Below are positions 6,703 to 13,542 of a DNA stretch of 20,463 bases, piece by piece. Numbering within the stretch: the first letter of the stretch is position 1; each line of letters opens with the position of its first letter. The notes under the pieces were generated by a model. The model was given only the letters and a program-made list of their open reading frames with translations, had not been told where the DNA came from and did no database searches. The stretch spans positions 1 to 20,463 of the IMG/VR virus record IMGVR_UViG_3300035670_001463; one strand, given 5' to 3'. The translations under genes were made by a program, and so were the position numbers. Origin of the DNA: a virus.

Positions 6703-7755
6703 TTAATCCTTTGTCATCTCTAGTAGGTTGGTTTGTAGTCTAGGATCATCAGGGGAGAACTCTAACGCTTTCTTGCACAGTTCAATGGCTTGGTCTTTGT
6801 AACCAAGATTCCATGCCGCTATGCTTGCTAGGTCGTATGGCTTTGCTCCCCATACACTTGGGTCCATTGTGTAGACCTCTTCTTTTTGGACAATCTCTAA
6901 TGCTTTCATGGTAGATGAATAACAATCTAGCCACTGTTGTTTCATGTAACAACTTAACGATAACTCAACCCAAGGCTCTCTAGTGTTAGGCGCTTCAGCA
7001 CAGGCCCGACGATACCACTGGATTGCTGTACCACCCTGGCCTAGTTCATCGTAACACTTACCTAGTAACCGCATTGCATAACAACGCTCATTAGGCCATG
7101 TAGCCTCTGGCATACTTAGGTATTTGTTCAGTGCTTCTATCGCTTCCTGCCACTTACTATAGAATGTCAGTTCTCTAGCATAGTAAAAGGCATTGCGAGG
7201 ACACCGTGGATCTTCTGTTACCGCTACCTTCAGTAAGTCTAAATACTGCCCCCTAGACTTAGTAGGATCAGGCATATGAACAACTAACAACTTATCTGTC
7301 CATGCCCATACTTCGTTAGTTCTTATATCTGGTACTGGATACTCATGACAAGGATGATGCCAGTGATAGCCTTTCCTATGGTGTATCTTTTCATAGTAGA
7401 AGGCGATACCACAACCCCAGTCAAACTTATATCGTAACCTAGTGGTGTCGTCCTTCCAGACTCTTTCAATTTCTTCACGCCACCCAGGTTGTAATACTTC
7501 ATCTAAATCTAAACTAACACAAACATCAACATCAGAAGGTATTAGTGCTAGTGCTGCATCCCTGGCTTTATCAAACCTCCAAGGATTTATACATATGTTA
7601 TATACCGTTGCTCCACACTGCTTTGCTAGTTCAACAGTATTATCAGTAGAACCTGTGTCTGCTATCAGTATTACATCAGCATCTTTGGCAGATTCACAAA
7701 AACGCTCTACAAACTGTTCTTCATTCTTACTGATTGCATACACTGCTATTTTCAT
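6703..7755 (-). CDS. Family 2-like glycosyltransferase with C-terminal TPR repeats
   Basis: I start at the ATG at 7755 (MKIAVYAISKNEEQFVERFC, 350 aa), because the AGAGG ribosome binding site is 6 bases before it but touches the alternative ATG at 7761. The N-terminal half is a GT-A fold: NEE at 11-13, ADTGSTDNT (32-40) for the nucleotide sugar, WRFDKARDAAL (59-69) and the DLDE (83-86) metal-binding DxD-type motif. The C-terminal half (about 190-345) has tetratricopeptide-like helical pairs (KWQEAIEALNKYL, GKCYDELGQ, YKDQAIELCKKALEFSPDD). It probably transfers a sugar from a nucleotide sugar to a cell-surface glycan or a protein. The target is unknown. A sigma70-type promoter lies directly upstream. 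Confidence 0.85.
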   Translation of the reverse strand: MKIAVYAISKNEEQFVERFCESAKDADVILIADTGSTDNTVELAKQCGATVYNICINPWRFDKARDAALALIPSDVDVCVSLDLDEVLQPGWREEIERVWKDDTTRLRYKFDWGCGIAFYYEKIHHRKGYHWHHPCHEYPVPDIRTNEVWAWTDKLLVVHMPDPTKSRGQYLDLLKVAVTEDPRCPRNAFYYARELTFYSKWQEAIEALNKYLSMPEATWPNERCYAMRLLGKCYDELGQGGTAIQWYRRACAEAPNTREPWVELSLSCYMKQQWLDCYSSTMKALEIVQKEEVYTMDPSVWGAKPYDLASIAAWNLGYKDQAIELCKKALEFSPDDPRLQTNLLEMTKD

Positions 7756-7778
7756 AGGCATCCTCTAAAATAACTATC

Positions 7779-8271: not shown

Positions 8272-10287
8272 TTATAGATCGGGGAATGCTTTAGTAGGGG
8301 CGGTAAAGTTAGCGGTATACCTAGCCACACCTTTGGTAATGCGAAGATCGTCTATGAAGCCGTCGAGTGACGCTACTCCTGCTGTAGTTGCACCTATCGC
8401 ATAAGCCGTTGGGACATATGAGTTAGTGTCTGTATATGTGGAACCAGTTTGCGTACCATTAATATAAAGTTTTGTTGACCCAGAAGATCTTACAAGCGCA
8501 ATGTGATACCAAGTAGATGTAGACAAAGAAGATCCTGTAATGCGAACTGCACCATCTGCAAACCAGCGAATTGTTCCTTGGTTATAGTAAATCGTACAAG
8601 TTCCTGGCCCAGTCCAAGCAACAAACCATTGCTCTAATGTTGATCTTAGGTACAACCAAAACTCTATTGTGAAGTCACCTGTGCCAAAAGCAAGTTCTGT
8701 TAATGATCTTGGAACAAGATAATCCGCAGTGCCATCAAACTCCATAGACCCTGTACCAAACTTCTTAGTAGTGGTGTCTATCTGAGCATTGCCGACTGTC
8801 TCTAGTACGTTCTTGCCTGTGTTGTCGAATATGCCAGCGTTGGTGAAGTTGCAGAGAAGGTTGGTGTTGGTTACCGCAGTCAATGGCGCTGTCGGTGGAG
8901 TAAAAGCGGCTGTGTAGACCGCAGTGCCCTTTACGACTCGTACATTAGAAAGATACCCTGTTATTAAAAGCTGAGGAGTTCCTGCTGTAAGTGTACCAGT
9001 CGCACCAACAAATAAATTATTACCGCTGCTCGCAGTGCCAGAAAGCGTTCCTGTTGCTACGCTTATTCCATTAACATAAATCGTTACTGTTGTACTAGAG
9101 CGAACAACAGCAATATGATTCCATGAGTTAGTTGTCCATGCGCTACCAGAAGACTGTGCAACTGTTGTGTTTCCAAAATAAAAGACAACATCCCTTGCGT
9201 TTGTTACATTAACTGCAACACCCCATCCAGTAGACGCGCTACCGTAGTTCCCAATAGGGTCTTGTCGAGTTGTGCCGTTACTGGTGTAGAGCCAAAATTC
9301 TACGGTAAAATTAGCATCAAAAGAAAATGCTGAGTTGTTAGGTAAACTTAGATAATCCCCCGTACCATCGAAGTACCCACTCCCGCCATTAGTGCTTGCA
9401 GAGTAAGCAGCAGAGGGTGCGAAAGGACTGAAAGGGGTTACCTTTACATCACCGTTGCGAGTGATGGTTTTTGGCGATGAGGAATTGTCTACAAAGCGAT
9501 TGGATTGACAGGTAAGCAATATTGTGTTTGTAATATCACTAAGTGGAGATGTGCTAGGCGTAAACCCAGTTGTATAAACCGCGCTTGTAGTCACCCTAAT
9601 ATTTGATGAATATCCCGTTTGTTTTGCGTAGTTATTTGCCCCAATAGCAAAATTCCCAATTGTGCCACTGCGGTTAGTTAATGTCGTTGTGCCATTCATA
9701 GACTCCGCAACGCCATTGACATACATTTGTATTGATCCTGCATTGACAACGCAAGCAATGTGATACCAAGTATTTAATGCTAATGTTGTTGAGCCATAAC
9801 AAACTTTGCCCGCCCCATCAAACCACCGAAGATATAAAACACCCGATTGATCTGGGCCAAAACAGAGGTAATTAATAATCCCCGCTGGCTCCCCATCGAG
9901 CGTTACAAAAGCAACAACCTTGTTGGCAAAATTTGTTGAAGACGATGTGTTAATAGTATAGGCTGTCATATAAATCCAGCCTTCAACAGTAAAAGTAGAT
10001 ACATTCTGCGTAATTAGTGCAGTCGATGTATTACCTAAATAATCCCCATTCCCATCAAAAAAGTTACTCCACTCCCCCGCACCTACACTAAATGGGCTAA
10101 ACGTGCCTTGAGTAGTGTTGCCATTGCGGGTAATGGTGAAGTTGTTGGTAGAGCCATCTAGGAACGTGTTGTTCTGCGCTCCGTTTGTGCCATCTCCATG
10201 CAATAGCAATACTGTTTGCTTGAAGTTGGGATCGGTCTCAGCAGAGACAGCGCCACCCCTAGATAGCATCTTCAATACATTACTCAT
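8272..10287 (-). CDS. Tail adhesin with three tandem LamG (concanavalin A-like) domains
   Basis: This 671-aa protein contains three homologous lectin-like modules at about 75-245, 303-465 and 514-665. Each repeats the same landmarks: a first strand (FTVEGWIYM, FTVEFWLYT, FTIEFWLYL), a middle W-(Y/N)-H-I-A motif (TWYHIACVV, SWNHIAVVR, TWYHIALVR), a Y-(V/I)-N-G turn, and a closing (N/D)(I/V/L)R(V/I)...Y(T)...FT.P segment. Such jelly-roll domains bind carbohydrates or proteins, so this is probably a host-binding fibre or spike. The N-terminus ([12 protein letters not shown]) would be the virion anchor. The ATG at 10287 overlaps the stop of the collagen-like gene (TAATG), suggesting coupled synthesis and perhaps one composite fibre. 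Confidence 0.85.
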   Translation of the reverse strand: MSNVLKMLSRGGAVSAETDPNFKQTVLLLHGDGTNGAQNNTFLDGSTNNFTITRNGNTTQGTFSPFSVGAGEWSNFFDGNGDYLGNTSTALITQNVSTFTVEGWIYMTAYTINTSSSTNFANKVVAFVTLDGEPAGIINYLCFGPDQSGVLYLRWFDGAGKVCYGSTTLALNTWYHIACVVNAGSIQMYVNGVAESMNGTTTLTNRSGTIGNFAIGANNYAKQTGYSSNIRVTTSAVYTTGFTPSTSPLSDITNTILLTCQSNRFVDNSSSPKTITRNGDVKVTPFSPFAPSAAYSASTNGGSGYFDGTGDYLSLPNNSAFSFDANFTVEFWLYTSNGTTRQDPIGNYGSASTGWGVAVNVTNARDVVFYFGNTTVAQSSGSAWTTNSWNHIAVVRSSTTVTIYVNGISVATGTLSGTASSGNNLFVGATGTLTAGTPQLLITGYLSNVRVVKGTAVYTAAFTPPTAPLTAVTNTNLLCNFTNAGIFDNTGKNVLETVGNAQIDTTTKKFGTGSMEFDGTADYLVPRSLTELAFGTGDFTIEFWLYLRSTLEQWFVAWTGPGTCTIYYNQGTIRWFADGAVRITGSSLSTSTWYHIALVRSSGSTKLYINGTQTGSTYTDTNSYVPTAYAIGATTAGVASLDGFIDDLRITKGVARYTANFTAPTKAFPDL

Positions 10288-11567
10288 TATGGCTTACCAA
10301 CTTCAGTTGCGTAGATAGTGGTACTAACCTTCCACAAGAGTATCCAAGTATAACCAGTGGTAGCTAATGTTGGTGCTGAACCAGTACCACCAACCTTAAC
10401 CCAAGTAGGATTAACAGTGGACCAAGTAATAGTGTAAGCAGTACCATCATCAATACCAAGCAACACTACTTGACCTGCTTCAAAGTTAGTTGCTGCTGGT
10501 GTACGGTTAGCACCTAGAGTTACTACTTGAATTGAACCATTACCAGGATCAATCTCAAAGCCAACACCGTCAGTGATGGTATGAACAGTATCTTTTAGTT
10601 CTTTGAAGGTTTGTTGTGCTGTCCAAGTCTGTGCTACATCTAACTTAGCAGTGTCAGCATCATAGGCTTGTACATCAGTACCAATAACTAAACCTAGTGT
10701 GGTACGCTGTGCAGCAGCATCAGCATCATCAAGGATAGCCCTACCAGCAGCAGTAAGATCAGTAACAGCATAAGTATCAGATGCTGTTGTATAGATCATC
10801 TTATTTGCTGCTGTGGTCAGTCCAGCAATAGACTGTAAACCAGCATCATAAGCCTGTATCGTTACTCCAATAGCAGCAGGAGCAAGATAATCAGTACCAG
10901 CAGTAGCAGTTGTAATGGCACTAGATCCGTTACCCATTAACAACGCACCAACAGTAAACGATGCAGCACCAGTACCACCATAAGGCACAGTAATCTCTGT
11001 ACCTTTCCACACACCTGTGGTTACTTCGCCACTATCGTTTACAATTAATGAACTATTCTGAATTAGTTTACCGGTGGTACTGTCAAACCTAGCAACCGCA
11101 TTATCAGTGGACGACGCTGGCCCCAAAACATCACCAGTACCACTACCACTAGCCCCGGTAGGACCGGTAGGACCAGCAACGGTAGAAGCAGCCCCAGTTG
11201 GTCCTGTAGGGCCGGTCGGTCCTGTTGGTCCTGCTACGTTAGAAGCAGCGCCAGTAGGCCCAGTAGGACCGGTAGCGCCGGTTGGTCCTGCAACTGTTGA
11301 AGCAGCACCAGTTGGTCCTGTTGGTCCTGCACTGCCGGCAGTTCCGGTAGGTCCGGTAGGGCCAGCAGCGCCTGCAACGCCAGCATCTCCTGTGGGACCG
11401 GTTGGGCCTATAGCCCCTGTTGGGCCTGTTGGTCCAGGAGGGCCGCCGCTAGGACCAGTAGCACCAGTTGGGCCTGTCGGACCTGATCCAGTTGGGCCAG
11501 TAGGTCCGTTTGGGCCTGTTGGTCCTGAAGGTACACCGTAGATTGTTTCGCCGCGAAATATGGCCAT
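10287..11567 (-). CDS. Collagen-like tail fibre protein
   Basis: Residues 15-144 of this 426-aa protein are mainly Gly-X-Y triplets, mostly GPTGPTG, interrupted by three nearly identical spacers AAS(T/N)VA that divide the region into blocks. Bacterial and phage collagen-like segments form stiff trimers. After it come a shaft element ([20 protein letters not shown], 185-204; then [11 protein letters not shown]) and a C-terminal domain that probably binds the host receptor or starts trimerisation. The N-terminus ([10 protein letters not shown]) is the likely virion attachment point. The gene begins after the terminator of the decoration gene and has AAAAGGA as ribosome binding site. The triplet DNA is repetitive and prone to slippage or assembly error. 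Confidence 0.9.
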
Positions 11568-12024: not shown

Positions 12025-13542
12025 TTAGGCAGGTACGGCAATAGCAACTGCACTTGAGTCACGCAACTCACCAACACCGTACAACGTATCAGCGGTGAGC
12101 AGCGTTGCAAGGTACTCTTGCTTGTACTGAGTCTGAACACGAACACCAAGTTGCTCAACCAACACAGCAAACTCAGGATGTGCCATCACAGCAATACGAG
12201 CACCACCAGTAGCAGTAGCGCAGTTGGTAGAGACATATACCTTAACACCGTATACATCACCAATCTGACCATTGCGAATGGAGTCGCCAGAGCCAACAAA
12301 CGCTTGCTCAGTAAAGCGGCTAAGACCAAGCAGAGTGTTACGAGCAACAGGAGGAATGATCATGAAACGACCATCCATCGGTACATCCTGGTCATCAAGC
12401 GTCTGAATCACTTTACGAATACCAGCATCCGTAAGCGCAGAAGCATTGTTAGCACCAGAGGTGTACGCAGTCGTACCATCACCACCGATAACAGCAGTGT
12501 TGTACGCAGCCGTACCGTTACCACCCTGAGCCTTAGCAGCCTGGGCAAGCACATCGGTATCAATGCGGGTCGACAGAGCATAACCAGCATCATCCGTGTA
12601 GAAGCGACGCAGCGAAGACTGTGCCTGAACTTCCGTGATGTCCTCAATCAGACGACTATACTCATAATGCTGGTCAATCGACACAGACAGCGAAGTGCCA
12701 GATTCAGCAATCAGAGTCACCTGTGCTTGAGCAGTTTTGCTCTTTGCAGAAGCAGAACCACGAACAGGAGCAGGGAAGTAGACTTTATCGCCTTTCTTAC
12801 CCTTGAAGTTCATCTTCTTGATGAGGTTAGCAGCAACAAGATTCTTCTTGTAAGCAGCCACAATTTCGTCAGCTTAGGATATTACAATCCTTTCGACTAT
12901 AGCTTCCCAAGAGAGATAAAATTCTTTCTTGAGCCGTTTCACTTAGTCTGTGCGGGTCACGCTTCATTAGCTTAAACTCTTCTCGAACGGCATCCAACAC
13001 ATCTTGCTGGAGTCTTGTTCCTTTTAAGTTTGTCTCCATCCAAAGACAAAACCGAGCTTGTTCCCTCTTCAGGAAAAGATGATTGATTACATTTCTGAGC
13101 ACAGGACAAGATTGTTTATATCCTGACAGTACCCATCCTGTGCTATCTTGATGATTAGGTTGTTTAGAAACCCTTTCTTCAAGATGCCCACCAAAGTTCA
13201 TTTGACACATTACTAATAAAAACCTACTTGGTTTTACTAGTGCAATTCTTAGCCTAGGCTGAATGTAGAATTGCTCATTTACTTTAGTGGTTGCGAGATC
13301 TATACAACCCTCGCCATCAATCAATCCTGCTAAATACTTCCAACTTACTCGCTTCATATAACCTCCTGGTTATGAACTGCGTTATTGGTATTTCGTGTTC
13401 CCTCTGATTAGCCCTTTCTAGTTGGCTTTCCAGTTATTCAGAAACGGTTTTACTTTGGCCTGTCTTACGATAACCAAACTTCCGGCACAAAGCCAGCGGT
13501 TTTAGCCTGTCCAACTAGAACGTGATCGGTACCCATACCCAT
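12025..13542 (-). CDS. Major capsid protein, gene split by a group I intron
   Basis: Exon 1 is 13473-13542 and exon 2 is 12025-12872; together they are 918 bases, or 305 aa plus stop. Exon 1 encodes MGMGTDHVLVGQAKTAGFVP-EVW and one base of Ser24; exon 2 supplies the other two and continues DEIVAAYKKNLVAANLIKKM. The joined F-V-P-E-V-W-S-D-E-I-V-A-A-Y-K-K-N matches the usual N-terminus of this class of phage capsid proteins, in which FIPEIWSDEI is common. Without splicing, exon 1 stops two codons past the junction, and exon 2 has no good start (only a GTG at 12861 lacking its N-terminus). Later segments (KGDKVYFPAPVRG, IDQHYEYSRLIEDITEVQ) also fit a capsid shell protein, probably HK97-fold. AAAGGATATTATC precedes the ATG at 13542. 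It follows scaffold, as expected. Confidence 0.9.
12869..13357 (-). CDS. LAGLIDADG homing endonuclease encoded inside the intron
   Basis: This 162-aa protein carries one LAGLIDADG motif, YLAGLIDGEG (residues 8-17), whose acidic residue Asp14 would be catalytic. It continues with CIDLATTKVNEQF and RLRIALV, the beta-strand pattern after the first helix in such enzymes. A single motif and this length suggest that it works as a homodimer, like I-CreI. It should cut intronless alleles of the capsid gene near the splice junction so that repair copies the intron in. The start at 13357 has a strong AGGAGG ribosome binding site inside a hairpin. Its 3' end is unusual: codons for the last 30 or so residues are also the ribozyme core, and the stop TGA lies within exon 2. 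Confidence 0.9.
   Translation of the reverse strand: MKRVSWKYLAGLIDGEGCIDLATTKVNEQFYIQPRLRIALVKPSRFLLVMCQMNFGGHLEERVSKQPNHQDSTGWVLSGYKQSCPVLRNVINHLFLKREQARFCLWMETNLKGTRLQQDVLDAVREEFKLMKRDPHRLSETAQERILSLLGSYSRKDCNILS
12873..13472 (-). ncRNA. Group I self-splicing intron in the capsid gene
   Basis: The 600-nt element folds by eye into the group I order. P1: exon UUUGGU (13473-13478) with guide GCCAAA (13454-13459), U.G at the 5' splice site. P10: guide CAG (13460-13462) with CUG at the start of exon 2. P3: CCGUUUC (13441-13447) with GAAACGG (12934-12940). P4: CUGG (13430-13433) with UCAG (13404-13407). P5: GCC/GGC (13424-13426/13411-13413). P7: GACUA (12944-12948) with UAGUC (12895-12899). P8: CUCAAGA (12927-12933) with UCUUGGG (12906-12912). 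P9: GGAU/AUCC (12887-12890/12877-12880). The last intron base is G (12873). The endonuclease gene fills the P6-side space between P4 and P7. P2 and P6 were not resolved. Confidence 0.88.
13358..13373 (-). promoter_or_regulatory. Hairpin hiding the endonuclease ribosome binding site
   Basis: On the minus strand ATAACC-AGGA-GGTTAT forms a perfect 6-bp stem directly before the ATG at 13357. The AGGAGG ribosome binding site is in its loop and right arm. An alternative fold pairs TTCAT with ATGAA across the start codon, with a 2-base bulge. Hiding the start of an intron endonuclease is known from phage T4 introns, where it keeps translation low or limits it to late infection. Confidence 0.6.

Follow-up and report, generated by a model that had tools for sequence, protein, structure and literature searches.

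The window (the whole 20,463-nt stretch of DNA analyzed here) is part of the genome of an uncultured tailed phage. The genes are on the minus strand and include those for terminase (phrog_2), an SU10/P22-like portal, the scaffold, the major head protein and the tail. Two other minus-strand genes are worth recording: 10287–11567, in the virion gene region, encodes a 426-aa protein with collagen-like GPTGPTGP repeats in its first third, and 6703–7761, in the phage structural region, encodes a glycosyltransferase family 2 domain fused to TPR repeats. The capsid frame is interrupted by 600 nt between T13473 and C12872. The insert and its surroundings are organized as follows.

13473..13542, minus strand: capsid exon 1, encoding MGMGTDHVLVGQAKTAGFVPEVW and base 1 of a Ser codon; it ends in U, and 76 of the 80 close relatives encode it without a break from exon 2.
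12873..13472, minus strand: group I intron of 600 nt with a terminal G; exact empty site in the relative L001, covarying core.
13465..13467, minus strand: UAA stop codon, read in the exon 1 frame; all 48 introns carry such a stop within their first 9 nt.
13358..13373, minus strand: hairpin AUAACC-AGGA-GGUUAU, with the Shine-Dalgarno sequence in the loop and 3′ arm; it adjoins the endonuclease ATG.
12869..13357, minus strand: LAGLIDADG homing endonuclease, 162 aa (PF00961, LAGLIDADG_1, E 7e-6, over the cut-off).
12025..12872, minus strand: capsid exon 2; it matches phrog_267 (major head protein, E 5e-46) and PF19821 (E 3e-9).

Joined together, exons 1 and 2 encode a 305-aa capsid protein that contains VPEVWSDEIV; the score of exon 2 against the N4-gp56 family is under that family's cut-off. 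The closest relative, L001, possesses an uninterrupted capsid gene with the exact empty site. It is 95% identical to the window upstream of the insertion and 91% downstream, and the capsid proteins are 98% identical. In the alignment, the surplus of the window over L001 is exactly 13472–12873, 600 nt; since the letters at the two ends differ, the boundaries of the insertion are fixed. The split and the restored frame that the original prediction had proposed are therefore correct to the base. Among 80 close capsid relatives, all of them assembled metagenome contigs, 76 encode an N-terminus that is continuous over both splice sites, two carry an intron (L043 and L045) and the remaining two (L027 and L052) are truncated contigs. 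This comparison, which had been suggested as a check, rules out relatives whose capsid protein truly begins within exon 2.

The intron belongs to a family of at least 48. A search of viral contigs with the endonuclease identified 43 loci, all 43 at the capsid gene between the scaffold and exon 2, and a search with a 20-nt core motif identified 78 contigs; together with other loci, these gave 57 distinct stretches. In 52 of the 57, the splice sites could be located, and 48 of the introns are distinct. The introns occupy two neighbouring positions. Site A, directly after ..GTTTGGT, is used in the window and its nearest relatives within the family; site B, after ..ATCCCT and 10 nt upstream of site A, is used in most other members.

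As the original prediction had claimed, P1, P3, P4, P5, P7, P8, P9, P10 and the final G are all present in the window, whereas P6 and P6a had been overlooked. The RNA elements are located as follows.

13473..13478, minus strand: P1 exon strand UUUGGU; 6 of 6 pairs with the guide, terminal U.G.
13460..13462, minus strand: P10 intron strand CAG, which pairs with exon 2 CUG (12872–12870).
13454..13459, minus strand: internal guide sequence GCCAAA, the P1 intron strand; site-B relatives have GGGGAU, GGGAAU or GGGGAC, matching their own exon.
13441..13447, minus strand: P3 5′ strand CCGUUUC; all 40 introns retain the 7 pairs, with many different stems.
13404..13433, minus strand: P4 (CUGG/UCAG) around P5 (AGCC/GGCU); the weak RF00028 match has the same span.
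13394..13402, minus strand: 5′ strands of P6 (GGG) and P6a (CACG); P6a has 5 distinct stems, fully paired.
12954..12961, minus strand: 3′ strands of P6a (CGUG) and P6 (CCC), pairing in relatives.
12944..12948, minus strand: P7 5′ strand GACUA, invariant.
12934..12940, minus strand: P3 3′ strand GAAACGG, inside the endonuclease frame; it pairs in 40 of 40.
12906..12933, minus strand: P8 (CUCAAGA/UCUUGGG), read by eye from the sequence; its length varies among relatives.
12895..12899, minus strand: P7 3′ strand UAGUC, with J8/7 AAGCUA directly before it.
12876..12891, minus strand: P9 hairpin; 48 of 48 introns have a hairpin here, differing in sequence.

P3, P4, P6, P7 and P8 are in group I order (P8 by eye), with P3 and P7 interleaved. 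The spacing from P7 to P3′ is 3 nt, which argues against subgroup IA. When 40 distinct introns were aligned by sequence alone, 920 of 920 pair cells of P3, P4, P6, P6a and P7 were paired, and 8 pairs showed double changes. Covariation is 0.194, compared to 0.074 (sd 0.006) upon shuffling, and none of 500 shuffles reached 0.194; relatedness inflates covariation counts, and in a control that retains relatedness, with the partner slid by 1–3 columns, only 33–42% were paired. P6, P7 and P4 are nearly invariant, and the covariation comes from P3, P6a, P1 and P10. For P3, there are seven different 5′ strands and ten strand combinations, counting G.U variants.

P1 is 6 bp in length in 47 of 48 introns and is always closed by U.G; P10 is 3 bp in 46 of 48. 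The terminal U of exon 1 and the terminal G of the intron are found in 48 of 48. The exon and guide strands of P1 occur as UUUGGU/GCCAAA, AUCCCU/GGGGAU, AUUCCU/GGGAAU and GUCCCU/GGGGAC. At site A, P10 is compensatory, being CUG/CAG in 3 introns and CAG/CUG in 4. Codon choice next to the splice site follows the guide: in the 31 site-B exons scored, the Pro codon ahead of the site is always CCT, versus 36 of 68 for genes that lack the intron. The empty site, the covariation over 40 distinct relatives and the tracking of exon changes by P1 and P10 all support the group I reading.

The original prediction had also expected a covariance hit with Rfam RF00028. Formally there is none: the intron is below the gathering score, which is a detection threshold and not a defining property of group I introns. 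With gathering and relaxed thresholds, RF00028 was not over threshold anywhere in the whole window or in the two intron halves, and the other Rfam matches in these sequences were chance matches to unrelated families only. The sole RF00028 signal in the record (9.1 bits, E 0.14) is at 13404–13433, which is exactly P4-P5-P4′. When the same model was run over 15 related records, none of the family introns scored over threshold, and one unrelated second intron was found. The low score is probably due to the reading frame of ∼490 nt, which splits the core. Introns of Bastillevirinae phages likewise give partial model matches and have nuclease frames splitting the core (PMC11878797). The RF00028 miss is outweighed by the family-specific covariation.

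The endonuclease frame, which had gone unmentioned in the original prediction, fills most of the intron. Its gene starts within the P6a loop, and its stop codon (12871–12869) is inside exon 2; the 3′ end of the gene also encodes P6a′, P6′, P7, P3′, P8, P7′ and P9. The AlphaFold model of the protein, built from 12 relatives, has a mean pLDDT of 88, and its best PDB matches by Foldseek are I-CvuI (E 3e-8) and I-CreI (E 2e-7); the predicted fold is I-CreI-like. Asp14 and Glu16 of the motif are invariant in 12 endonuclease sequences. I-CreI and I-CvuI come from algal organelles. Like the endonuclease of the window, they are of single-motif LAGLIDADG fold and are encoded by group I introns; different from them, it shares only about 20% identity with these enzymes and its target would be the capsid gene. 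Neither the endonuclease nor its alignment found relatives in the genome collection, which thus pointed to no host or cellular source, and annotated phage records contain relatives of up to about 36% identity only, in Gordonia and Streptomyces phages. The endonuclease also matches PHROG 5046, labelled HNH. PHROG 5046 and several GenBank records name such LAGLIDADG proteins 'HNH endonuclease', which is apparently a misnomer.

Between the window and L045, the endonuclease has a dN of 0.026 and a dS of 0.68 (dN/dS about 0.04), and therefore it has been kept functional under strong purifying selection. This bears on the reading of the insert as a decaying element, namely a group I intron that splices poorly or is immobile in this phage. 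Although the weak Rfam score would fit decay, the core helices of the window are all intact, the endonuclease frame is open with this low dN/dS, and an essential capsid gene depends on the intron; we consider decay very unlikely. In the last 32 codons of the endonuclease, which overlap the core, dS is 0.05 for the same pair. Such synonymous constraint, located exactly at the overlap of gene and core, speaks against a free-standing homing endonuclease gene that landed in or broke the capsid gene, with the capsid protein made from an internal GTG (12861) in exon 2 and the helices present by chance. The LAGLIDADG gene of the insert does have its own ribosome site, and no Rfam intron is over threshold; however, the covarying P3 and P6a are far from chance, the guide and P10 track exon changes, the ends are always U for the exon and G for the intron, and joining restores the frame, making this reading highly improbable. 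An intein or a group II intron, which the split essential gene and the nuclease frame might suggest, has a negligible probability, the former being rejected by the stop codon that the exon 1 frame meets within 9 nt and the latter by the lack of a reverse transcriptase and by ends and core order that are those of group I.

The insert that splits the major capsid gene of this uncultured tailed phage is almost certainly a group I intron, and a mobile one. As is typical of homing introns, it is patchily present, has empty alleles and is transferred faster than its host gene. The introns of L086 and L094 are 99.2% identical, versus 77.5% for capsid exon 2; between the two phages, the endonuclease gene has a dS of 0.03, against 1.33 for the capsid gene. 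The presence of near-identical introns in diverged capsid genes therefore indicates recent movement between these phages. The introns of L139, L156, L164, L172, L189 and L196 are in capsid genes that are hardly alignable with that of the window. Exon differences between the window and L001 amount to 7 of 40 within 20 nt of the insertion versus 36 of 1310 at greater distances (binomial P 1e-4), an excess that is confined to a short flank, was found post hoc and comes from this single allele pair. At one of the flank differences, L001 has GTA and the window has GTT; GTA would mismatch P1. Both the excess and this P1 mismatch fit co-conversion, in which short flanks would enter together with the intron. 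The mobility of the intron is evident from sequence comparison, and cleavage of intronless alleles probably accounts for it.

On the endonuclease tree, eight site-A members lie within a group of 22, of which the other 14 are site-B members (support 98/93), and one to three site changes are needed. In the simplest reading, site A would have arisen from site B by re-coding of the guide and P10, with the endonuclease staying. We lean towards the view that one lineage moved its splice site by 10 nt (guide GGGGAU to GCCAAA, P10 re-coded) with no change of endonuclease family and probably none of DNA target; we infer the direction of the change from the sequences. The 10-nt site shift is the most interesting feature of the family.

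Several members show additional features. In L139 (8850–9790), the capsid gene apparently contains two tandem introns of the same family, with an exon of ∼30 nt between them. The second of these encodes a duplicated two-motif LAGLIDADG protein (PF00961, two stretches, E 4e-18), and by eye it has P3 UUUCUUC/GAAGAGA and P6a CUG/CAG. L198 (2350–2620), which is from the same record as L156, contains a second group I intron (RF00028, 81 bits) ∼70 nt downstream of the family intron in the same capsid gene. The G+C-rich phage L123 possesses a same-family intron with a G+C-rich P9, which suggests adaptation to another genome composition.

Based on the conserved structure, the capsid transcript is probably spliced. 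The end of exon 1, UUUGGU, would pair with the guide GCCAAA, and the P3–P8 core would cut after that U; P10 (CUG/CAG) would position exon 2 for ligation, resulting in a seamless capsid mRNA. Splicing would then presumably be required for each virion, as the original prediction had proposed. On unspliced RNA, ribosomes coming from exon 1 would stop within 9 nt and stay out of the core, which may be the purpose of the stop codon. In-frame stops of introns are thought to aid folding by stalling the ribosome (review PMC3984707). The endonuclease gene sits behind the ribosome-site hairpin, its 3′ end doubling as the 3′ half of the ribozyme. The stem of the Shine-Dalgarno hairpin is retained with changing sequence in most relatives; by analogy, it may have a regulatory role and delay translation of the endonuclease, delayed translation having been described for I-TevI of T4 (in work that PMC3984707 cites). 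The I-CreI-like endonuclease would most likely cut intronless capsid alleles near the PE(V/I)WSDE codons, and repair of the cut allele would copy the intron in.

The introns of T4 reside in nucleotide-metabolism genes, and their enzymes are GIY-YIG or HNH-type, not LAGLIDADG. Like the intron of the window, those of T4 td, nrdB and nrdD are group I introns of a phage that contain homing endonuclease frames, and in-frame stops and delayed endonuclease translation have been discussed for them (reviews PMC2988022, PMC3984707). The Bastillevirinae introns are also group I introns in phage genes, with nuclease frames that overlap and split the core; unlike in the present case, the word 'capsid' is absent from the text of that paper (PMC11878797). 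The original prediction had regarded the capsid gene as an unusual host, but a capsid intron with a LAGLIDADG frame has been published. The major capsid gene of mycobacteriophage LittleE contains such an intron, whose splicing was proven by RT-PCR and N-terminal sequencing (PMC3706429). It resembles that of the window in its major capsid host, exon-end U, intron-end G and internal LAGLIDADG frame, whereas it is about 819 bp in length and its endonuclease is on the opposite strand. It was found in one of six related phages, and its authors left the type open, as 'most likely a group I' (PMC3706429). An intron in a capsid subunit gene is also known from lactococcal phage Tuc2009, as cited in PMC3706429. 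Further literature on capsid introns and phage Milano contained nothing new, and a description of the window's intron family was not found in the literature searched. Thus, the kind is already known from LittleE; what is new is the well-populated family itself, its pair of adjacent splice sites, the way in which the gene overlaps the core and the evidence of transfer.

These observations add a large, clearly mobile family of group I introns to the few cases known from structural genes that are expressed late and at a high level, here in environmental phages. With a gene 3′ end that is also the ribozyme 3′ half and a stop codon borrowed from the exon, the intron lends itself well to studying how constraints on RNA and on protein overlap. 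Sites located 10 nt apart, and guides that follow synonymous exon changes, offer tests of how introns shift their insertion site, and the two-site family lets one ask whether the guide or the endonuclease sets the range. If the 10-nt shift did take place as proposed, nature would have preserved a case in which the splice site was re-targeted independently of the endonuclease target.
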